Shown piece by piece: positions 40,554 to 50,711 of a stretch of 64,000 nt of DNA. Each line of letters begins with the position of its first letter. Position 1 is the stretch's first letter. The stretch spans positions 434,001 through 498,000 of the forward strand of contig NC_018719.1 in the NCBI RefSeq assembly GCF_000303155.1, written 5' to 3'. The notes under the pieces were generated by a model, which did no database searches, was not told the origin of the DNA, and saw only the letters and a program-made list of their open reading frames with translations. The stretch comes from Candidatus Nitrososphaera gargensis Ga9.2 (GTDB lineage Archaea > Thermoproteota > Nitrososphaeria > Nitrososphaerales > Nitrososphaeraceae). The position numbers and the translations under genes are program-made.

Positions 40554-41516
40554 TTACATCTTTGCCTTGATCAGCGCGGCATATATGAATGGCAAGAGCG
40601 TAGTTGCCTCGCCGTGGATGGTAACCTGCCTTGCCTTGGCAGTCACTTTGCCCCACGATATCGCCTCCGCTACAAGGGCGCCACTCAGGCTCCCGTCCCA
40701 TTCAGGCGCCGTGGTAATGTAGACAGCATAGTCAAGCCCGCCCCTGAACTGGTTCCACCAGAGCGTGTGGTGCTTTGAAATGCCGCCGCCTATCATGAAC
40801 GCGCCAGACCTTTTGGCTTCAAAGACAATGTCAGATAGCTTGCTCTGGTCCTTCAGGATGTCCACCTTGAAGTCCTTGTGCTGCTGGTAAAAGAACCAGA
40901 CCTGGCTGCCTACGGCGCCATCAACGATGCCGGGCACTATCACTGGGATTCTGTTCTTGTGGGCCCAGTACAGGAATGATGACTTGTCAAGCGTGCTCCC
41001 GATATAGTCGGTTATCTCGTATGTCGAAACGCTGCGTTTGCCTTCCTTGTACATATCTGCCAAGCACTTTTGGATCTTTTCTTCGATGAGCGGGCCATAG
41101 TTGCCCATGGGAACCAGCACGTTGCCAAGTCTGTGGATATCCTTGTCAAGCAGCATCCCGTCGTCCATTCTAAAGTCGCCGGCGTAGTACTTGTCGTAGG
41201 CCCTTGCAATGTCGTGATCGAGTGCGCCGCATGTAGTGATAATGACATCACACATTTTGTTTCTTACCATGTCGCGGATAATGCCTCTTGCTCCAGTCGA
41301 CATCAGCGCGCCCACAAAGGACATGAACTTGGTGCAACTCTTGTCGTCTATCATCCTGCGCAGGATATCGACGCCATCGGCAAGGTTCCGTGACTCAAAG
41401 CCTCCAGAACGGGTCATGCTGGAAAAGATGGAATTGACATCATCATTCTGTTCAATCGAGTAATCTCTTACTGGGCTGCGTAAAAGTTCCTTATCCTTTT
41501 TCGCTCTGCCGGCCAT
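40554..41516 (-). CDS. dys: Deoxyhypusine synthase
   Basis: 320 residues. NAD- and spermidine-binding blocks are FMSFVGALMSTGARGII, DVIITTCGALDHDIAR and IPVIVPGIVDGAVGS. The catalytic lysine is in GGGISKHHTLWWN, followed by DYAVYITTAPEWDGSLSGA. It transfers the aminobutyl group of spermidine to a lysine of aIF5A, making deoxyhypusine needed for translation of difficult sequences. A second family member with altered motifs is at 43056. Confidence 0.93.
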   Translation of the reverse strand: MAGRAKKDKELLRSPVRDYSIEQNDDVNSIFSSMTRSGGFESRNLADGVDILRRMIDDKSCTKFMSFVGALMSTGARGIIRDMVRNKMCDVIITTCGALDHDIARAYDKYYAGDFRMDDGMLLDKDIHRLGNVLVPMGNYGPLIEEKIQKCLADMYKEGKRSVSTYEITDYIGSTLDKSSFLYWAHKNRIPVIVPGIVDGAVGSQVWFFYQQHKDFKVDILKDQSKLSDIVFEAKRSGAFMIGGGISKHHTLWWNQFRGGLDYAVYITTAPEWDGSLSGALVAEAISWGKVTAKARQVTIHGEATTLLPFIYAALIKAKM

Positions 41517-41566: not shown

Positions 41567-42807
41567 TTAGCTTCCTCTTTTTTCCACCAGTACTGCTGGT
41601 TCAGGCGGCGGGTCCTTTCTATATGCCAGCTTGAGCCAGACAGGCGTGATTATCGTGCTCACAGCAACCATAATTACCCTGGTGCTGAACAGGTTGGTCG
41701 ATAGGACTCCTGCAGACGCGCCTGTTGCCACAACTATAAGTCCAACTTCGCCCCTTGATATCATGCCTATTCCTACTTTCATCGCTTTTCTCCTGTCCTT
41801 CAGAAATATTATTGATAGAAGCCCGCAGTCGACCAGCTTTGTTCCAACTGCCACTGCGATTGTGATGCCTGCTAGGGCCAACACTTTGACGTTGACTCCC
41901 CTGAGATCCACTCTGGCACCTATTATCGCAAAGAAGAGGGGGCAAAAACAATGTCCAGTTTCTCTGCGTATTGCCTTATCTGCTGGAAGGCCTTGGAGGC
42001 AGTTACTGCCATGCCGGCAGCAAAAGCGCCTACTATTGGCGACAGGCCTGCAAAGGATGCTGCTCCGGAAACTGCAAAACAGGCCGCCGTCGCTGCGACT
42101 TCTGTACTTCCATGCGGCTTCCAGATTTCCAAGTTCAAGAGGCGTGGTATTGCAACAACTGAAGCTACGAGTGTGGCGGCATAGATCCCAAGAATCTGCA
42201 AAAGGGACAGGGCAACGCCGTTGATATTGGGGTTGATGTTTCCTGTCCTGACCATGGTGAGAACCACGGACAGCACTGTAATAGCCAGCACGTCGTCTGC
42301 GACTGCCGCACCCAAGATGAGCCTGCCTTCTCTGGATTGCAGCCTTCCAAGCTCGCTCAATACTTTGACTGAGATGGCTATGTTGGTGGCTATCAGGGCC
42401 GTGGCCACAATTATCACATGCAGCGACTCGATGCCTATTGAGACAAATACGAAATAGCCTACAAAGAACGGAGCGACTACCCCGAGAGCTCCTACTGTAA
42501 ACGATGGGGCACCGAGCTTCATGAGCTCCTTTGGAGTGGTTCCCATCCCTGCCACAAAAAGAATAATGATCGCCGAGATTTCACCAATAATGAGCACCGT
42601 TTCGTCAAGCATGACTATAGGGCGCCCGTCGATGAGCAACAGGCCGCCGATGGCAAAGGGGCCTATTATGATGCCAGCAATTATCTCTCCCAAGACTATG
42701 GGCTGCTTCATCCTCTGTACCAATCTTGCCATGAGCTTAGCGGCAAAGAGCAGTATGGTTAGAGTGACGAGAACTTGAAGGACATGTTCAGTAGCCAAGC
42801 ATAGCAC
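41567..42807 (-). pseudogene. CPA2-type cation/proton antiporter, one frameshift
   Basis: The 5' frame (42807 down to 41923) gives a multi-span protein with LGEIIAGIIIGPFAIGG, ILGAAVADDVLAITVLSVVL (the DD motif) and SPIVGAFAAGMAV. At EKLDIVFAP it meets a run of five C (41938-41942, G on the plus strand) and closes. Adding one C restores PLFFAIIGARVDLRGVNV and joins the second frame to its end at 41567, including KVGIGMISRGEVGLIV. This gives about 413 residues. It is either a true frameshift or a homopolymer read error. The rest is well preserved. Confidence 0.85.
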
Positions 42808-43055: not shown

Positions 43056-44126
43056 GTGGACAGCAGGCATACATTCACCGGCAGGAAAATTGATCCCCAA
43101 AAAGTTTCTGCAAACATGACCGTTCCAGACCTGATCAGGTTTTACGGCTCGACCGGCTACAACGCGCGCCGGCTTGCCGAAGCTGCAGAGATACTGCAGG
43201 ACATGATAGACACCAACTCGACTGTCTGCCTGACCCTCGCAGGTGCAATGACCCCGATCGGGCTTGGCCGGACAATCTCGGAAATGATAGAGAAGGGCTT
43301 TATAGACTGGATCGTGGCGACCGGTGCCAATGTCTATCATGACCTCCATTTCGCTTACGACCTGCCAGTGAGGCAGGGCCATTTTGACGTTGACGACGAC
43401 ATCCTTTACGCAAAGCAGATTGTGAGGATTTATGACGTTTACATAAAGGAGATGGGAACGCTCCAGGCGCAGGACCTGATAGTGCAGAAGGAGATCAGGA
43501 GGGCAAAGGACATGCCGCCCAATGCGTCCACGGCCGATATCGCCTACGCGCTTGGCAAGGCGGCAAAGGAAAATGCCAAGCATCCGGAAAAGTCATTTCT
43601 GGTCAAGGCGTACGAGCACAAGGTGCCAGTGTACATGCCAGCGATAAGCGACTCGTCGATCGGCCTCAACATGCTGCCGCTCCTGTTCGAAGGCAAGGGC
43701 GTGTTTCCAAACGTCATACTTGATGTCGCCGAGTCTGCCGCCATCCTGTGGAAGAGCGATAGGTCAGGCGGGCTTGAGCTTGGCGGCGGGGTTCCCAAGA
43801 ACTTTTTCCAGCAGACCGGGCCTGCACTGTACCAGATCCTAAAGATAAAGGAGGGCGGACAGGACTACCTCATACAGCTGACAGACGCACGACCGGACAC
43901 AGGCGGGCTCTCTGGCGCTACGCTGCAGGAGGGCAAGAGCTGGGGCAAGATCAAGACCTCTCATAGGGGCAACGTCATCGTCTATGGCGACTCGTCTGTC
44001 TACTTTCCGCTGCTCTGCTCATACGCAATGTCTGTGTGCAGCCCAAGGAAGCACAAGCAGCTGTACGAAAAAAAGGATGCATGGGTAGAGGAAATGAAAA
44101 GGACATACTTTAAGAACAAGAAATAG
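43056..44126 (+). CDS. Deoxyhypusine-synthase-like protein (divergent paralog)
   Basis: 356 residues, GTG start. The fold signatures are TVCLTLAGAMTPIGLGRTISEMIEKGFIDWIVATGANVYHD, VPVYMPAISDSSIGLN and GLELGGGVPKNFFQQ. The lysine equivalent to the catalytic one is kept but is followed by N-F rather than H-H, and DARPDTGGLSGA replaces TAPEWDGSLSGA. Such deoxyhypusine-synthase-like proteins are widespread and may use other amines (homospermidine-type chemistry) rather than aIF5A. The substrate is unknown. Confidence 0.85.
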   Translation: MDSRHTFTGRKIDPQKVSANMTVPDLIRFYGSTGYNARRLAEAAEILQDMIDTNSTVCLTLAGAMTPIGLGRTISEMIEKGFIDWIVATGANVYHDLHFAYDLPVRQGHFDVDDDILYAKQIVRIYDVYIKEMGTLQAQDLIVQKEIRRAKDMPPNASTADIAYALGKAAKENAKHPEKSFLVKAYEHKVPVYMPAISDSSIGLNMLPLLFEGKGVFPNVILDVAESAAILWKSDRSGGLELGGGVPKNFFQQTGPALYQILKIKEGGQDYLIQLTDARPDTGGLSGATLQEGKSWGKIKTSHRGNVIVYGDSSVYFPLLCSYAMSVCSPRKHKQLYEKKDAWVEEMKRTYFKNKK

Positions 44127-44582: not shown

Positions 44583-45341
44583 ATATGTTACATATGAAGA
44601 GGAAGAGCGCAAGACAACCGATAAACTTCAGCTCAAGCTGCTGTCAAAAGAAAAATTGCAGGGCACAGACATAATGACGTTCAGGCTTGCCCGAGGTCCG
44701 TTGGATTATGCCGCAGGACAGTATGTGCGTTCTTCAAGCTAGACGGAGTTTCAGGGGATCTCAAAGGGCCAATCAGGCACTTTACGATTGCATCCTCGCC
44801 AACCGAGCAGGATTACATCTTGATAATCACCATAATAAGGGACAGCCTGTACAAGCAAAAGCTGGCATCGCTGACCGATGGCACAGAAATCCTTGCATGG
44901 GGGCCGTAGAGAGAGTTTGTGCTGCATGACGATCAAAGCCGGCAATATTTCTGTCAGGCGGGATCGGGGTCACACCGTTTAGAAGCATGATAAAATACGC
45001 CACAGATAGATGCTTGCCTCTCAAGATAGTGATGTTTGACTCTAACAGGAATGAAAGCAACATCCTGTACAAACAGGAATTTGATAGGTGGGCTCTGGAC
45101 AATAAAAAACCTAAAGATAATCTACACAGTCACGGACGAAAACGCCGTAGGATCATGGAGCGGGAAGCGTGGCAGGATAAACAAAGAAATGATTACAAGA
45201 CACCTTGGCAGCGACGAGATTGCAAACGCTATTTTCTATATCTGCGGCCCGCCGGCCATGCTCAAGGCAATGCAAGAGCTGCTGCAAGAATTTCAGGTGC
45301 AAGAAGAAAGGATCAAGGTTAAAGAGTTTACGGGCTACTGA
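44583..45341 (+). pseudogene. FAD/NAD(P)-binding oxidoreductase (ferredoxin reductase fold), decayed
   Basis: Stitched frames give LQLKLLSKEKLQGTDIMTFRL and GPLDYAAGQYV, then FFKLDG and RHFTIASSPTEQDY (flavin motif RxFTxxS). Next are AWGP, a TAG stop, EFVLHDD, and SGGIGVTPFRSMIKYA (NAD ribose motif). The relic ends AIFYICGPPAMLKAMQELL with KEFTGY. At least three frameshifts (near 44730, 44950 and 45108) plus one nonsense codon are needed. An FNR-like electron-transfer enzyme was lost. Its last bases overlap the convergent glucoamylase-like gene. Confidence 0.85.
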
Positions 45342-46695
45342 TTGTCCTCTGCATGTTTGCCAGAATATCGATGATAGCCAGCCTTATTGAAGAGATGCCT
45401 GTCCTGAAGGGGAACGCTCCATTACCTCTGCCGGTAATTGAGTCGACCCATTCGTAAAATGCAAGCATGCTGTTGTTATCGCTGTGCTCGCCTTGGATCA
45501 GGATCGAAAGCAGGTGGTCGCATTCTTCAAACCTGCGAAGCCGGCTTCTTGCAAGCATCTCTGCCCCCGTGATCCAAGGCCAGAAAGTGTGGTTGTGGTA
45601 TTCGTTTGGGTGAAGTACCCATGGGCCAGTGGTCTTGAGCTCTACTTCTGTAACCAGCGGCCACTTTTCCTTCCATATCCTAGCTTTAATGGCATCCAGC
45701 GTGCTGCTGGCGTGCTTGGTAAATTCGGGGCTTGCCGGCTCTTTTTTCCTGTCTTTGTGGACGCTGAGAATGTCGCTGGTGGTGTTTTCGGTGACTGCAA
45801 TCATATAAAATACAACATCTTGTGTGAGCGTCTTGTAGGGGCCGCCTATGTGATGCTCCTCCTGCAGGTCGATGTAGGTCCCTTCTTCTTCCAGCCACAA
45901 TTTTTCCTCTACCGCCTTTACCGATCTATTGGCTAGCGCCATAATCCTGTTGGCGTCTTCGTCCTTGCCAAGCTCTGCCAGAAGAGAAGAGAGGTTGCTC
46001 AGGGCAAGTATCCAGCATGCCTGGCTGTAGACTATTTTTCCGGACCTAAGCACAGTGTCCATCCAGTCTTCGTTATGGCCCTGCTCAAGCAACCCATCGC
46101 CATCAATGTCCCGGCCTACTAAGTAGTCTACTCCCTTTAGCATCCGGGGAAGTACAAAGTCTATGACGGTTGAAGGGTCGGATACTGTTCTTGATATCCT
46201 CGCTTCTAGCGACTCTGTAATGTAAGACAGCTGCGGCGCCGAAACCAGCCCGGCCTTCAGATAGGCATTCAGGATCCACGATGTGGCAGAAATCATTAAT
46301 GCAGTCGAATCAATGTCAGGGTCTTGACCGTACACCTCGGAAAAACCATGAAATATGGTCGTAGGGAGCGCCCCTTCAAACCTCTTTTCGGTTTCTGACG
46401 TGGCTACCTGTGAAAGGTATCTCATCTCTGGCGACCCCCTGCCGTAGATTATCTTCTCGCGGCCTGCTGCAATCTGGTGGGACCAGATGAACATCAGTTC
46501 ACGCATCACGGCTTCAGCATGACCGGCTAGGAACCAGTCTCTGAGTATGTATGATGCGTCCCTGCACCATATTGCCTTGTAGTATCCTCCGGGGTTTATC
46601 CCTTGGCGAATGTAATCTTCAGTCGTTTCCATGAATCTTTCTGCTTTTGAAACAAATGGATTCAAGGCATCGGCGAGATCAGAGGAGTTCACCAT
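45328..46695 (-). CDS. Glucoamylase/debranching-enzyme-like glycoside hydrolase (six-hairpin fold)
   Basis: 455 residues. YYKAIWCRDASYILRDWFLAGH, GLLEQGHNEDWMDTVLRSGKIVYSQACWILAL and NEYHNHTFWPWITGAEMLAR are typical of the six-hairpin (alpha/alpha)6 hydrolases such as GH15 and amylo-1,6-glucosidases. The acidic residues of NEDWMD would be catalytic. There is no signal peptide, so the substrate is intracellular, such as glycogen or trehalose-like sugar. It heads a block of sugar-phosphate genes on the same strand. Confidence 0.75.
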   Translation of the reverse strand: MVNSSDLADALNPFVSKAERFMETTEDYIRQGINPGGYYKAIWCRDASYILRDWFLAGHAEAVMRELMFIWSHQIAAGREKIIYGRGSPEMRYLSQVATSETEKRFEGALPTTIFHGFSEVYGQDPDIDSTALMISATSWILNAYLKAGLVSAPQLSYITESLEARISRTVSDPSTVIDFVLPRMLKGVDYLVGRDIDGDGLLEQGHNEDWMDTVLRSGKIVYSQACWILALSNLSSLLAELGKDEDANRIMALANRSVKAVEEKLWLEEEGTYIDLQEEHHIGGPYKTLTQDVVFYMIAVTENTTSDILSVHKDRKKEPASPEFTKHASSTLDAIKARIWKEKWPLVTEVELKTTGPWVLHPNEYHNHTFWPWITGAEMLARSRLRRFEECDHLLSILIQGEHSDNNSMLAFYEWVDSITGRGNGAFPFRTGISSIRLAIIDILANMQRTISSP

Positions 46696-46767
46696 CCATT
46701 GAAGTAAGCACTCTTTTCTTTTTTTAGGTTACAATCCTTATCTGCGATATGTGCTAATTGAAAGACA

Positions 46768-46923
46768 TTGTCGAAAGAATCATTTGCAGAATACAGGTGC
46801 CGCTCGTGCGGGCAGCAGTTTAGCAGCCTGGGAGACATGCAGAAGCACATCTTAATTGAGCATTTTCAGACCGGGGACATCCCAGCCAAAGAGGATGCAC
46901 AAAGAGAAGCACAGGCTGCCTAG
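46768..46923 (+). CDS. Mini C2H2 zinc-finger protein (51 aa)
   Basis: From TTG at 46768: SKESFAEYRCRSCGQQF, then SSLGDMQKHILIEHF with CxxC-x12-HxxxxH finger spacing, and an acidic tail to TAG at 46921. It overlaps the end of the convergent 6-phosphogluconate dehydrogenase gene. Its layout is like the 43-aa protein at 50845. Confidence 0.6.
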   Translation: MSKESFAEYRCRSCGQQFSSLGDMQKHILIEHFQTGDIPAKEDAQREAQAA

Positions 46924-47855
46924 ACCTTGTGGACTCTGCTTGTTTTCCTCTCCTCTGCTATGTCCTTGTCCTTTCCAAAAGGATGCCCGCCAAAGCCATG
47001 CCTCATCAACGCTATGGCCTTGTAAGCGTTGCTTTCGCTCATCCTTGACTTGAACAGCTCCATTACGGCTTGGGAAATTATGGGTATTGGGATTTCTTTG
47101 CTAACCGCGTCTTGAACGAGCCAGTTGACCTCACCGGTGTCCTCGACGTAGCTCTCCACCTTGTCGATGCCCTGCTCTCTCAAACCTCTCTCCATGAGCT
47201 CTACAAGCCACCCTCTGATGACAGAGCCGTTTGACCAGTTCTTGAAAATCTTCTGTAGGTCAAGCCTGAAATCGCTTTTTCGTAGCAGCTCAACGCCCTC
47301 CCCTATCGATTGCAGCATGCCAAATTCGATCCCATTATGAACCAGCTTGACAAAGTGGCCACTTCCCGGCTGGCCTGTATGCACGTATCCGTCCTTTACG
47401 GATAACGCAGTCAAAAGGGGCTCGGCTATCCTGACGCCTTCTTGTCTGCCGCCGACCATAAAGCACGCACCGTATCGGGCTCCTTCCAGCCCACCACTTG
47501 TGCCGCAGTCAAGAAAATAGATGCCCTTTTCCCACATCCTTTTCTCCCTTTCGATAGAATCTAGGTAGAATGAATTGCCGCCATCCATCACCACGTCTCC
47601 TTTTGCAAGGTAGGCTGCCAGCTCGTCAAGCACAGTATCTACAGTGGGGCCTGCAGGCAGGGAGAGATATACGACCCTTGGCTGTTTCAGATGCCTTGCA
47701 AAAGAGTCATAGTCCGTCACTACCCTGATCCCTTGCTTTTCCAATTCCGGCTTGCTCTTTCTCGCTTTTCCAATGACGTCTATCTTTTTTTCGTGGGCCT
47801 GCATGGCGAGGTTCCCACCCATCTTGCCAAGGCCGACTATTCCAAGCTGCCGCAT
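46920..47855 (-). CDS. gnd: 6-phosphogluconate dehydrogenase, decarboxylating
   Basis: 311 residues, the short (NAD-type, GndA-like) form. The Rossmann start MRQLGIVGLGKMGGNLA is followed by GDVVMDGGNSFYLDS, DCGTSGGLEGARYGACFMVGG (substrate-binding phrase) and SGHFVKLVHNGIEFGMLQSIGEG with the catalytic Lys/Asn. It converts 6-phosphogluconate to ribulose 5-phosphate and CO2. Its neighbours RpiA and an F420-dependent glucose-6-phosphate dehydrogenase-like protein complete an oxidative pentose route. Confidence 0.93.
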   Translation of the reverse strand: MRQLGIVGLGKMGGNLAMQAHEKKIDVIGKARKSKPELEKQGIRVVTDYDSFARHLKQPRVVYLSLPAGPTVDTVLDELAAYLAKGDVVMDGGNSFYLDSIEREKRMWEKGIYFLDCGTSGGLEGARYGACFMVGGRQEGVRIAEPLLTALSVKDGYVHTGQPGSGHFVKLVHNGIEFGMLQSIGEGVELLRKSDFRLDLQKIFKNWSNGSVIRGWLVELMERGLREQGIDKVESYVEDTGEVNWLVQDAVSKEIPIPIISQAVMELFKSRMSESNAYKAIALMRHGFGGHPFGKDKDIAEERKTSRVHKV

Positions 47856-47864
47856 ATATATCTC

Positions 47865-48257
47865 CTAGCCACCACCCGTAAGCCCGCCAAAGGCAAGAAA
47901 CTCTATCATCTCGCTCCCGTCGTTTGTTATCGAATGAACCGCCTTTTCCGGTATGTAAATGACGTCGCCGTCCCTGAACCGGGCGCTTTCGCCGCCCACT
48001 TTGATCTGGCCTGACCCGCTGATTATGTAGTACACTTCTTCATGATCTTGGTGGTCGTGCGGCTCGTACGACAGGGTCGGCTGCAACTTGGCAAGCGAAA
48101 CATAAGTGATGGTCTTTAGGCATTGAAACTTGGGGTCAACTTCAACTTCGATATCGCCACTAGTCTTGGCGGGCATACCAAGCAGCCGCCAGTCCAGCCC
48201 GCTCTTGTGGGCTATGGTCGGGTGGACGTTTCTCCAGTTCCTTACTACTATGACCAT
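47865..48257 (-). CDS. Cupin-domain protein
   Basis: 130 residues. YEPHDHQDHEEVYYIISGSGQIKVGGESARFRDGDVIYIPEKAVHSITN is the two-motif cupin core, with metal ligands HxHxxxxE and a later H. Small cupins are often sugar isomerases, dioxygenases or ligand sensors; which one is not clear. It lies between gnd and the cyclase gene, 9 nt from gnd. Confidence 0.8.
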   Translation of the reverse strand: MVIVVRNWRNVHPTIAHKSGLDWRLLGMPAKTSGDIEVEVDPKFQCLKTITYVSLAKLQPTLSYEPHDHQDHEEVYYIISGSGQIKVGGESARFRDGDVIYIPEKAVHSITNDGSEMIEFLAFGGLTGGG

Positions 48258-48280
48258 TGATCACACAGGTGCCCAACAAA

Positions 48281-48907
48281 TTATTTTACTATATCAAACA
48301 GGACCGCTCTGGCAGGCGACCCGTCGATCCCCTTCAGCGGCAGGGGCAGGCACACAAAAAACATCCTACTGCCTGCAAACTGCTCCAAATTGACAAGGTT
48401 TTCAATTATCCCGATGTTGCTGGCAAGAAGCATCTTGTGGACAGGCGCGTCCTTTACTCCATACTTTTCTACGCTCGGGGTGTCAATGCCTACACACCTG
48501 ACTCCATGCTCTGTGATCCATTTAGCTGCAGAAACATCAAGGTAGGCAAAGTCGGTGGGGCGGTCGCCCGTGCCAGTGTGGATAAGCACAATGTCGCCGC
48601 TTCTGATGTCGTTGCAAGAAAAGTCGCCGGCGGTTATGCTGCTTTTGCCTGAAGCATCGATAATCGCGGCCTCGCCAACGAATTTGTCAAGAGGCTCCAT
48701 GTCTATTCCGTTTCCGTCCTGAAGAAAATGCCACGGCGCGTCAACATGGGTTCCAGTATGGGAGCCAAGTGTGATTCTGGTGACATTGGCTTTGCCGTCT
48801 TCTTTGATAGTCACATGAGGTTCGAATTTTGGTCGTGGGTCTCCCGGATAGACCTGCATGTCTTCACTTATTGTCCGGGTCAGGTCATGGATTCTCGATA
48901 GTTTCAA
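48281..48907 (-). CDS. Cyclase-family hydrolase (kynurenine-formamidase-like)
   Basis: 208 residues from TTG at 48907, where the family's N-terminus (KLSRIHDLTRTISEDMQVYPGDP) begins. A 46-residue upstream extension in the same frame overlaps rpiA and is not protein-like. GSHTGTHVDAPWHF is the metal-binding HxGTHxDxPxH motif, and GDIVLIHTGTGD and GVRCVGIDTPSVEKYG follow. The family hydrolyses amides or esters of aromatic or small acids. Its real substrate is unknown. It overlaps rpiA by 23 nt. Confidence 0.85.
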   Translation of the reverse strand: MKLSRIHDLTRTISEDMQVYPGDPRPKFEPHVTIKEDGKANVTRITLGSHTGTHVDAPWHFLQDGNGIDMEPLDKFVGEAAIIDASGKSSITAGDFSCNDIRSGDIVLIHTGTGDRPTDFAYLDVSAAKWITEHGVRCVGIDTPSVEKYGVKDAPVHKMLLASNIGIIENLVNLEQFAGSRMFFVCLPLPLKGIDGSPARAVLFDIVK

Positions 48908-49616
48908 AAGAGCTGTCCTCTTTTGCCTTGTAATAATAATAGTATGTGTCTGCGCGCCGGGTAAAGAGGCCGACTTCAACCACGCCTGCGATGCTTTTGA
49001 GCTCAACTTCCTGCCGCCTGATGTCTGATGATGGTGGAAAGTCAAATTCTGTGTCTAGAATAAAGTTGCCGTTCTCTGTAACGTATGGATAGCCTTCCCT
49101 TAGCATCCTCATTTTCGGCCTGCCGCCAACCTCTTCTAGCTTTTTCCTGACAACATGAACTGCAAAAGGGTGAGTTTCAATCGGAACCGGCCAGCTGAAG
49201 GTGGGCACAAATTTTGTGGATTCTGCCGCAATTACGATCTTCTTGGCGGCAGAGTGGACTATTTTCTCTCGCGAAAGGGCACCGCCTCCACCCTTTATCA
49301 TGTTGAATCTGGCATCGATCTCGTCAGCGCCATCAAAAACAACATCAACTTCTGGCATCCTGTTCTCCCCCACCAATTTCAGCCCGCTGCATTCGGCTTC
49401 AAGCTTTATCTGGAATGAAGTTGGGATGCACTCAAGAGTATCCTTCCTGTCAAAATTTGCCATCTCCCTTACGATGGCAGCCGCCATCGGACCGCTTCCA
49501 AGGCCAACTACCTGGTCAGGCTTTACAAAGCGCTCAACTGTTTCTTTTGCCAAATTCCTGGCAGCTTCTTGGAACGATCGCGGGATCCAGTTCGTTTCTT
49601 GTAAACCCGCATACAT
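48885..49616 (-). CDS. rpiA: Ribose-5-phosphate isomerase A
   Basis: 243 residues. VVGLGSGPMAAAIVREM, VDVVFDGADEIDARFNMIKGGGGALSREKIVHSAAKKIVIAAESTK and VPIETHPFA are the RpiA active-site blocks. It interconverts ribulose 5-phosphate and ribose 5-phosphate for nucleotide synthesis. A Tyr-rich run (DTYYYYYKAKED) near the C-terminus is unusual. The start at 49616 gives MYAGLQETNWIPRSFQEAARN; Met is first. Confidence 0.92.
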   Translation of the reverse strand: MYAGLQETNWIPRSFQEAARNLAKETVERFVKPDQVVGLGSGPMAAAIVREMANFDRKDTLECIPTSFQIKLEAECSGLKLVGENRMPEVDVVFDGADEIDARFNMIKGGGGALSREKIVHSAAKKIVIAAESTKFVPTFSWPVPIETHPFAVHVVRKKLEEVGGRPKMRMLREGYPYVTENGNFILDTEFDFPPSSDIRRQEVELKSIAGVVEVGLFTRRADTYYYYYKAKEDSSFETIENP

Positions 49617-49667
49617 GGCATATAGCTTGCGCCATATCGATTAAAAAAGTTGCAACAACAACAATGC

Positions 49668-50711
49668 CTAGGCAGAAGTGGCCGTCGTTTTTCTGCTGCC
49701 GCGAGCTTCTATGCTGAAATGCGGCATTACCTTTTTGCTGAACATCTGGATAAATTTTATCTCGTCGGGGCTCGTGCTGTGGACATAGACCCTTGTAAAA
49801 CCTACTTTAAAGTAGTCCTCTATAGATTTTATGCAATCCTCTATTGAAGTTGTTATCTGGATGGCTTGCTTGATCTTTTCATCAGGGACTTTGCTTTCCG
49901 CTTTTTGCTGGAGGCTTCTTGGGTCGCTGATGTCAGAGTCAAACACGTTCTTTATGAGAGTAGCTCGCCAGAAAGTTGCAGACTTGAAAGCCTCGTCATA
50001 ATCCTCAGAAAATGACACCTTGTATTCCGCTATCTTTTCCAAAGAATCTTTATCCCTTCCTTCTTTTTCAGCTGTCGCATCAAATATGTGAAGCACCTTG
50101 CCTGCCTCGGCTGCTGGCAAGTAGGTTATCAGGCCGTCTGAATATTGCGCGGCAACCTTTGCTGCCTGCTTTCCGGTTGCGGCCATATACACGGGTATCT
50201 TGGTAGAGGGTGGAGTGTACAGCTTGGCGTCGCGGATTAGAAAATACTCTCCGTTGAAATTCACAAATCCTTCATCATCTACACCTTGACCCCATAGCTC
50301 CTTGATTATCTGGATCGCTTCTTTCGTCCTTGCAAGCCTCGCCCTTGCCCTCGGCCAATCAAACCCAAGCGGGGCCTCGTTCATGGCTTCTCCGCTACCA
50401 AGTCCAAGCCCAATGCGACCCGGGTAAAGTACATCAAGAGACGCGAATGCCTGAGCGATAATGGCAGGATGATACCGATAGACTGGAGCAGTCACGCCTG
50501 TAACAAACTGCATCCTCTTTGTATTTTCTGCCGCGGCGGCCATCCAGATCCACGTAAAGTTGCCAAATGCGCCATCGTGCCACCAAGGGTGGAAATGATC
50601 GCTGGTCATTGTCGTTGCAAACCCACTCTTCTCTGCCTCGGTGACAAATTTTAGCAAATCCTGCATCGAATACTGCTCTTGGGCAGCCCAATATCCCAAT
50701 GCCCTTCCCAT
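49668..50711 (-). CDS. F420-dependent glucose-6-phosphate dehydrogenase-like LLM oxidoreductase
   Basis: 347 residues. LGYWAAQEQYSMQDLLKFVTEAEKSGFATTMTSDHFHPW with the SDHFHPW signature, then VTGVTAPVYRYHPAIIAQAFASL and GLGSGEAMNEAPLG are typical of luciferase-like monooxygenase-fold, F420-dependent dehydrogenases. The trp/His motif near the active site fits the FGD and G6PDH-like subgroup (TIGR03557-type). With gnd and rpiA in the same cluster, glucose-6-phosphate oxidation is a good guess, though secondary-alcohol activity cannot be excluded. Confidence 0.8.
   Translation of the reverse strand: MGRALGYWAAQEQYSMQDLLKFVTEAEKSGFATTMTSDHFHPWWHDGAFGNFTWIWMAAAAENTKRMQFVTGVTAPVYRYHPAIIAQAFASLDVLYPGRIGLGLGSGEAMNEAPLGFDWPRARARLARTKEAIQIIKELWGQGVDDEGFVNFNGEYFLIRDAKLYTPPSTKIPVYMAATGKQAAKVAAQYSDGLITYLPAAEAGKVLHIFDATAEKEGRDKDSLEKIAEYKVSFSEDYDEAFKSATFWRATLIKNVFDSDISDPRSLQQKAESKVPDEKIKQAIQITTSIEDCIKSIEDYFKVGFTRVYVHSTSPDEIKFIQMFSKKVMPHFSIEARGSRKTTATSA

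Follow-up and report, generated by a model that had tools for sequence, protein, structure and literature searches.

A 64,000 nt stretch of the Candidatus Nitrososphaera gargensis Ga9.2 genome (a single contig of 2,833,868 bp; the whole stretch, G000:C1:434001-498000, is called the window below) carries six adjacent genes on its minus strand (Table 1): an LLM-class oxidoreductase, an RpiA paralog, a PF04199 (cyclase family) hydrolase, a cupin, a member of the 6-phosphogluconate dehydrogenase family (Gnd), and a glycoside hydrolase (GH). We propose, with confidence a little short of even, that this cluster encodes a non-phosphorylated oxidative pentose route, every substrate and reaction of which we infer from the sequences. 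The free-sugar chemistry is drawn from three enzymes (LLM, RpiA paralog, and Gnd) that each lack some of the usual phosphate-binding residues but retain the others, and that lie, or have relatives that lie, beside genes for the release or oxidation of free glucose.

In this route the hydrolase would free glucose from a glucan. A glucose dehydrogenase, either the LLM enzyme with F420 or a glucose dehydrogenase of the SDR family encoded at another locus, would oxidize glucose to gluconolactone, which the cyclase would open to gluconate; Gnd would oxidize and decarboxylate gluconate to ribulose and CO2, with NAD(P)+; the RpiA paralog would convert ribulose to ribose; and a ribokinase encoded elsewhere in the genome would phosphorylate the ribose, the first step at which phosphate enters. 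As drawn, this is a variant of the oxidative pentose route. The original prediction for this DNA was of an F420-linked pentose phosphate module of four genes (GH, Gnd, RpiA, and LLM), turning a glucan into pentose phosphate with reduced cofactors. Those four open reading frames (ORFs) are where it placed them, all on the minus strand; it made no mention of the cyclase and cupin genes between RpiA and Gnd. In outline, a glucan being converted to pentose while cofactors are reduced, it agrees with the neighborhood evidence given below, but its stated chemistry fits poorly.

A Gnd clade with altered phosphate contacts

The window Gnd passes the family models TIGR00872 (313.7 against a cut-off of 297.2) and NF007161 (353.8 against 271). 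For comparison, a genome collection covering 84,980 species, with a single genome per species, was scanned with an alignment of Nitrososphaeraceae Gnd, and the best 80 of 434 confirmed loci were taken as a sample. These fall into clade A (52 loci, L123-L174), whose members come from Nitrososphaeraceae, methanogens, Bathyarchaeota, Lokiarchaeota, Bacteroidota, Ignavibacteriota, Chloroflexota, Pseudomonadota, and others, and clade B (28 loci, L175-L202), mostly from Bacillota and Chlorobiota. In a 77-row tree, the branch leading to clade A has support of 100/100 and a length of 0.96; five loci with no usable called ORF (L132, L141, L154, L157, and L194) were left out of the tree, and are included in the residue comparison (53 clade-A rows, counting the window, and 28 clade-B rows).

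The residues of sheep 6-phosphogluconate dehydrogenase that contact 6-phosphogluconate are listed in Table 2 of PMC1919378. Contacts at the acid end of the substrate (N102, S128, G129, G130, K183, H186, N187, and E190) are retained in 51-53 of the 53 clade-A rows and in all 28 clade-B rows; in the window Gnd, K170, N174, and E177 correspond to Lys183, Asn187, and Glu190. On the phosphate side, the window enzyme has F178, N244, L246, and L267 in place of Y191, K260, T262, and R287, and the same holds for nearly all of its clade: position 191 is F in 51 rows and A in two, position 260 is N in 50, S in two, and D in one, position 262 is L in 52 and A in one, and position 287 is L in all 53. Clade B by comparison has Tyr191, Thr262, and Arg287 in all 28 rows, with position 260 K in 15, R in eight, and other residues in five. 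Because these four contacts are lost across the clade, 6-phosphogluconate, the substrate first suggested for the window Gnd, is unlikely to be the right one.

The nearest structural relatives are the short 6-phosphogluconate dehydrogenases of TIGR00872 (Rv1122 Gnd2, 8ihe; Gluconobacter, 10gw, with 6-phosphogluconate bound; G. metallireducens, 4e21; Gluconacetobacter, 6vpb). A predicted model of the window Gnd (pLDDT 93.7) matches these with Z scores of 29.5-31.3 over 262-274 residues, the highest (31.3) to Rv1122 Gnd2; for solved 6-phosphogluconate dehydrogenases in general the range is 27-31, over approximately residues 1-274, so that the comparison covers the region before the C-terminal tail. 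Fold, length class, and catalytic residues are shared. At the four phosphate-side positions, however, 6vpb, 10gw, and 8ihe have Y, R, T, and R, where clade A typically has F, N, L, and L, together with a longer tail.

The RpiA paralog, cyclase, and cupin

The cluster RpiA passes TIGR00021 (190.7 against a cut-off of 126.4) and has the DGADE and KGGGGAL motifs. Its loop reads GSGPM, where four solved RpiA proteins and 15 housekeeping copies have G(T/S)GST, a loop that we take to bind phosphate; the open-licence literature yielded no source on what the RpiA GTGST loop does. Among 27 loops read (from copies that came with a locus or were fetched later), 12 are GSGPM, from 11 family genomes and L124, and 15 are GSGST; each of six genomes in which both copies were read has one of each. 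These copies retain the DGAD and KGGGG motifs, except that one of the GSGPM type (L221) has KGESG in place of the latter. The N. gargensis genome itself has a second RpiA gene (C1:1070420-1071082) with the loop GSGST; with this copy found, a housekeeping role for the cluster RpiA was dropped.

The cyclase has the sequence HTGTHVDAPWH, matching HxGTHxDxPxH, presumably a metal motif. It shares this motif and its family with PF04199 hydrolases of the kynurenine formamidase and isatin hydrolase type; unlike them, it scores under the arylformamidase equivalog cut-off (135.3 against 223.05) and sits with gnd. PF04199 genes adjoin gnd in archaea, Bacteroidota, and Ignavibacteriota, and are one gene off in Bacillota and a Mycoplasmatota genome. 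Twelve gnd loci of the sample also have zwf: six of these have pgl, four a cyclase, two neither, and none both. The order at the four (L177, L178, L188, and L191) is gnd-zwf-cyclase, putting PF04199 in the slot that PF01182 occupies in Chlorobiota loci. This fits, for the few loci concerned, replacement of Pgl by the cyclase, acting on the phosphorylated lactone at zwf loci and on the unphosphorylated one here, and makes the cyclase at the gnd-zwf-cyclase loci a candidate non-orthologous 6-phosphogluconolactonase. The earlier statement that no lactonase is seen thus holds for PF01182, but it overlooked the PF04199 gene beside gnd, a lactonase candidate. The cupin is a Cupin_2 protein by Pfam, and the copies in relatives align with it.

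The LLM oxidoreductase

The LLM protein passes the model for its broad F420-dependent family, TIGR03557 (239.6 against a cut-off of 210.4), and fails that for the F420-dependent glucose-6-phosphate dehydrogenase (Fgd) equivalog, TIGR03554 (229.6 against 420). Its alignment with Fgd1 spans nearly the whole length, and like Fgd it has E12, H39, W43, and E108, which we take to be catalytic positions. By score it is closer to an F420-dependent alcohol dehydrogenase: its best PDB match is Adf (1rhc), at 234 bits vs. 203-209 for Fgd.

The pocket thought to bind the phosphate of glucose 6-phosphate in Fgd consists of Lys198, Lys259, and Arg283 (as described in PMC5352752). The window LLM has A200, D258, and A283 at these positions, and none of their immediate neighbors is Lys or Arg; across 26 LLM orthologs (56-81% identity), the second and third pocket columns are never Lys or Arg. 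Since the phosphate pocket is missing and the equivalog cut-off is failed, glucose 6-phosphate is unlikely to be the substrate, and the protein is probably not an Fgd. Rv0132c of M. tuberculosis also lacks these residues, and has been assigned to hydroxymycolic acid rather than to glucose 6-phosphate (PMC3859598, in the part concerned). In the portion of a review that deals with them, Fgd in Thaumarchaeota is marked with a question mark, and F420 in N. gargensis is said to be indicated by genome and fluorescence evidence, without biochemical proof (PMC8498797). Up to 12 such genes per genome have been annotated as Fgd via KEGG in Gagatemarchaeum, according to the relevant passage of PMC10640624.

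A second LLM relative lies elsewhere in the genome (G000:C1:942737-943530). It is made up of two pieces in different frames, 45 and 30% identical, one of them with a stop, and is apparently broken.

Genes around gnd in the two clades

Neighboring genes were scored by tblastn, each family being represented by at most 12 sequences, in flanks of at most 7 kb; 32 of the 80 loci fall short of 14 kb, and the Fisher p values given here and below treat related genomes as independent. At least one of zwf, an FGGY kinase, and the PF01182 lactonase pgl is found at 24 of the 28 clade-B loci (zwf at 12, FGGY at 12, and pgl at six), vs. none of the 52 clade-A loci; GntK-type kinases were not looked for. Conversely, a glycoside hydrolase is near gnd at 24/52 clade-A and 1/28 clade-B loci.

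SDR genes were counted at 17/52 and 1/28 loci, which narrows to 11/52 and 0/28 when a C-terminal tail like that of glucose dehydrogenase is demanded; the use of this tail as a mark is our own interpretation of an alignment of the SDR at one clade-A locus, L124. The top seven PDB matches of that protein, among the best 60 of 710, are all glucose 1-dehydrogenases. In four SDRs tested, the glucose-1-dehydrogenase model PRK08936 ranks first in NCBIfam, below its cut-off of 420; all four pass the glucose 1-dehydrogenase subfamily NF005559, and two also pass a FabG subfamily. Because PRK08936 is not passed and two also pass the FabG subfamily, the name glucose 1-dehydrogenase is not certain for these proteins.

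Altogether, 38 of the 52 clade-A loci carry a glycoside hydrolase, glucose dehydrogenase, cyclase, or gluconate permease. Genes for making 6-phosphogluconate are absent around clade-A gnd in this sample, and genes for making or importing gluconate are often present.

Other pathway enzymes in the genome

In nine family genomes, including this one, no match was found to PF01182 or PF02781, while controls matched in 9/14 for each. No FGGY match was above cut-off in the nine (controls, 11/14); the same was true of GntK (TIGR01313), for which only five of 14 controls matched, two of them above cut-off. The N. gargensis matches to FGGY (23.3 bits) and GntK (25.6 bits) are partial and below cut-off, and were rejected. 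Two matches to the PF10282 lactonase family (28.3 and 24.1 bits; cut-off 21.7), one of them just past the second locus described below, cover the model in part and were not counted as lactonases, though they may be genuine.

There are five PfkB matches in the genome. For the best (C1:2018475-2019383), the top NCBIfam model is ribokinase. By eye, this gene adjoins a nucleoside-hydrolase-like ORF (L254:4374-6414; G000:C1:2017373-2019413), and the same pairing is found in G120 (L256); it is a possible ribose salvage pair.

Conservation and a second locus

The original prediction called the grouping notable, and it is not due to chance: the order LLM-RpiA-cyclase-cupin-gnd-GH, on one strand, recurs in a relative (G178), with partial sets in others. 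Good gnd matches (64-100% identity) were found in 11 of 70 family genomes, two of them cut by contig ends; a 72% identical fragment in G166 brings the total, partial matches included, to 12. The gnd copy in G168 has five internal stops, and two further family genomes have only paralogs of 23-27% identity. In the ten relatives' contigs with gnd, there is a cupin nearby in eight, a cyclase in seven, GH in five, an RpiA in four, and LLM in three. GH was found in 31/70 family genomes and LLM relatives (at least 54% identity, split matches included) in at least 35/70. LLM is thus commoner than gnd (at least 35/70 vs. 12/70 genomes, partial matches included), and the idea that it is specific to gnd was dropped.

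N. gargensis has a second locus at C1:524.4-532 kb, with a broken gnd (G000:C1:524397-525300, in pieces 60-71% identical), an intact GH, a broken GH (G000:C1:528529-529900), an SDR, and an intact Rieske reductase. The SDR is 71% identical to that of L124; it adjoins the broken GH, and is about 3 kb from the intact one.

Four contigs labelled as TM6 bacterium, Methanophagales, and Actinomycetes (L124, L127, L130, and L137) have gnd genes 64-79% identical to that of the window. L124, which carries a Nitrososphaera-type cluster, is probably mis-binned.

Counterarguments and alternatives

A number of points weigh against the phosphate-free route. The functions of the clade-A enzymes are predictions throughout, as are cofactor preference, the part played by the cupin, and the pathway reactions. 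Fourteen of the 52 clade-A loci lack any of the expected neighbors, and several of the neighbor families fail to separate the clades: cyclase (16/52 in clade A vs. 4/28 in clade B; p 0.17), the permease GntP (9/52 vs. 6/28; p 0.77), and Zn-type dehydrogenase (7/52 vs. 0/28; p 0.09), this last count being seven loci of one ORF cluster, with PF16912 checked in one (L127). Several clade-A contigs are from metagenome-assembled genomes (MAGs), and may be mis-binned. Nor do the genes always travel together. G165, an 89%-complete MAG in which no gnd turned up, carries LLM, the RpiA paralog, cyclase, and cupin together on a single contig; many genomes have LLM but not gnd, among them G100, which consists of one contig. 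PF10282 lactonase matches above the Pfam cut-off are present in all nine genomes searched (strong only in G100 and G113). The ribokinase-like gene is under its model cut-off (170.9 against 299.65), and PfkB matches above 140 bits occur in just three of the nine genomes (this one, G072, and G120); the ribokinase-like PfkB does not track gnd well. Among the LLM orthologs, the first or third pocket column is flanked by a Lys in several, and the third is itself His in two. The remaining points concern Gnd itself, and bear directly on the main rival to the proposed route.

This rival is a rebuilt phosphate site: clade-A Gnd would still be a 6-phosphogluconate dehydrogenase, supplied with 6-phosphogluconate by an unrecognized kinase or dehydrogenase, with Arg285, His291, and the C-terminal tail holding the phosphate. 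Arg285 is present in 52 of 53 clade-A rows (the other, a broken copy, has X) and His291 in 51, and both are in all 28 clade-B rows; they are presumed equivalents of R446' and H452', which belong to the half of the site that binds the 6-phosphogluconate phosphate. After the GGH motif, clade A has an extra conserved basic tail, lacking in clade B, in which Arg303 is invariant in 33 rows; this tail could bind phosphate. An RpiA-family neighbor, and the passing of TIGR00872 by the window Gnd, would also be expected of such an enzyme. Set against them are the joint loss of the four phosphate-side contacts to uncharged residues in nearly all rows, the parallel alteration of the RpiA paralog, and the lack of a visible supply: zwf, FGGY, GntK, and PF01182 give nothing above cut-off in the nine genomes, and zwf, FGGY, and pgl are missing from all 52 clade-A neighborhoods (where GntK-type kinases were not looked for). 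We regard a rebuilt site as unlikely.

As a second possibility, the cluster might act on some other unphosphorylated sugar acid, on which Gnd, the RpiA paralog, and the cupin would all work; examples are a different hexonate, or a pentonate derived from cell-surface glycans or nucleosides. In its favor, the residues discussed above do not reveal sugar specificity, LLM is commoner than gnd, and the ribokinase-like gene stands next to a nucleoside-hydrolase-like ORF (judged by eye). The GntP permeases, GH15 enzymes, and SDRs of the glucose 1-dehydrogenase type near clade-A gnd indicate glucose and gluconate instead, and we regard this alternative as quite improbable. The third, that the LLM enzyme is a classical Fgd, oxidizing glucose 6-phosphate with F420 as the original prediction had it, seems very improbable: passing TIGR03557, a near-full-length alignment with Fgd1, and the queried listing of Fgd in Thaumarchaeota (in the part of PMC8498797 concerned) speak for it, but it was set aside on the failed TIGR03554 cut-off and the absent pocket residues, and it also has against it the assignment of the similarly altered Rv0132c to hydroxymycolic acid (PMC3859598, as above) and the altered phosphate sites of Gnd and RpiA.

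Relation to known systems

The proposed phosphate-free route resembles the oxidative pentose phosphate pathway (zwf, pgl, gnd, and rpiA) in its sequence of C1 oxidation, lactone opening, oxidative decarboxylation, and aldose/ketose isomerization, and Gnd and RpiA are homologous in the two. It differs in that no PF02781 or PF01182 was found here, the phosphate sites of Gnd and RpiA are altered, and the proposed intermediates are free of phosphate. In the non-phosphorylative Entner-Doudoroff pathway, gluconate is dehydrated to 2-keto-3-deoxygluconate (KDG), whereas the route suggested here would oxidatively decarboxylate it to a pentulose. The resemblance between these two is one of spirit: the route proposed here would also start from free glucose, on which a glucose dehydrogenase acts as the first step of the archaeal pathway (PMC4518329, in the section concerned).

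No description of gluconate decarboxylation by a Gnd homolog, or of a PF04199 lactonase, was found in the open-licence literature, as covered by titles and the beginnings of abstracts (the organism's main genome papers fall outside this coverage). The passages concerned in PMC4518329, PMC8305020, and PMC6053391 contain no such description, and what is given in the corresponding part of PMC8193941 is ordinary 6-phosphogluconate chemistry.

More tentatively than for the cluster itself, we suggest an undescribed phosphate-free route spread across ammonia-oxidizing archaea, methanogens, Asgard archaea, Bacteroidota, and other bacteria. It would comprise a phosphate-blind Gnd clade, joined in Nitrososphaeraceae by an RpiA that is likewise phosphate-blind, together with a PF04199 aldonolactonase and a glucose dehydrogenase that in Nitrososphaera may be linked to F420, and would draw both ribose and NAD(P)H from stored glucan with no ATP spent before the ribokinase; PF04199 might also be an overlooked 6-phosphogluconolactonase in some Bacillota. 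The window Gnd passes an NCBIfam phosphogluconate dehydrogenase model, and so genomes like this one would be credited with an oxidative pentose phosphate step that is possibly not theirs. If the substrate is gluconate, a whole enzyme clade in archaea and bacteria is misnamed, and there is a phosphate-free path to ribose and NAD(P)H. If true, the proposal would further assign the F420-linked LLM enzymes of soil ammonia oxidizers a role open to testing, and offer a candidate lactonase for some Bacillota in which none lies beside zwf.

Glycoside hydrolase, locus layout, and neighboring genes

Of the family assignments made earlier, those of Gnd, RpiA, and LLM (to the broad F420 family) stand, in that each passes its model; the glucoamylase-like (GH15) one for the hydrolase does not. 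No PF00723 (GH15) match is listed in a Pfam search, and a phmmer search against PDB found no relative. The Pfam matches it does have are just above cut-off (DUF608/GH116, 27.3 against 26.3; GDE_C, 23.8 against 21), with an MGH1-like match below. A predicted model (pLDDT 66.0) gives a general (alpha/alpha)6 fold match (Z 21-24) to cellobiose 2-epimerase, rhamnosidase, GH63, GH94, GH116, and neutral invertase. The GH15 reading was rejected on these grounds, and the sugar specificity is not fixed by them.

Table 1. Genes of the cluster and the adjoining broken gene, in window coordinates.
Feature	Position	Strand	Basis and proposed role
LLM-class oxidoreductase	49668-50711	minus	TIGR03557 passed; proposed F420-dependent dehydrogenase of an unphosphorylated sugar (glucose?)
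RpiA paralog, altered phosphate loop GSGPM	48885-49616	minus	TIGR00021 passed; proposed ribulose/ribose isomerase
PF04199 cyclase family hydrolase	48281-48907	minus	Pfam Cyclase, 9.2e-31; proposed aldonolactonase
Cupin_2 protein	47865-48257	minus	Pfam; candidate sugar anomerase or isomerase (?)
Gnd, clade A	46920-47855	minus	TIGR00872; proposed decarboxylating dehydrogenase of gluconate, not 6-phosphogluconate
(alpha/alpha)6-type glycoside hydrolase (GH)	45328-46695	minus	weak GDE_C and DUF608/GH116; proposed glucose-releasing glucosidase
Broken Rieske ferredoxin-NAD(P) reductase fusion gene	44593-45338	plus	tblastn with relatives; convergent with GH

The cluster is compact, with gaps of 51 bp between LLM and RpiA, 23 bp between cyclase and cupin, 9 bp between cupin and Gnd, and 224 bp between Gnd and GH. 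The longest ORF ending at the cyclase stop (48281) would begin with a TTG at 49045, inside RpiA; a start nearer 48907 or 48859 is likelier, because several homologs align only from residue 40-54.

The broken Rieske reductase gene is 49-57% identical to those of relatives by tblastn, in two frames with stops. A full-length copy is convergent with GH in G173, and in G172 LLM sits between the reductase and GH.

Farther along, two genes of the deoxyhypusine synthase family lie near each other, at 40554-41516 (minus strand) and 43056-44126 (plus strand), the latter passing the homospermidine biosynthesis model NF001980 (488 against a cut-off of 450). Two neighboring frames at 41567-42807 (minus strand) appear by eye to be a single cation/proton antiporter gene with a frame break.

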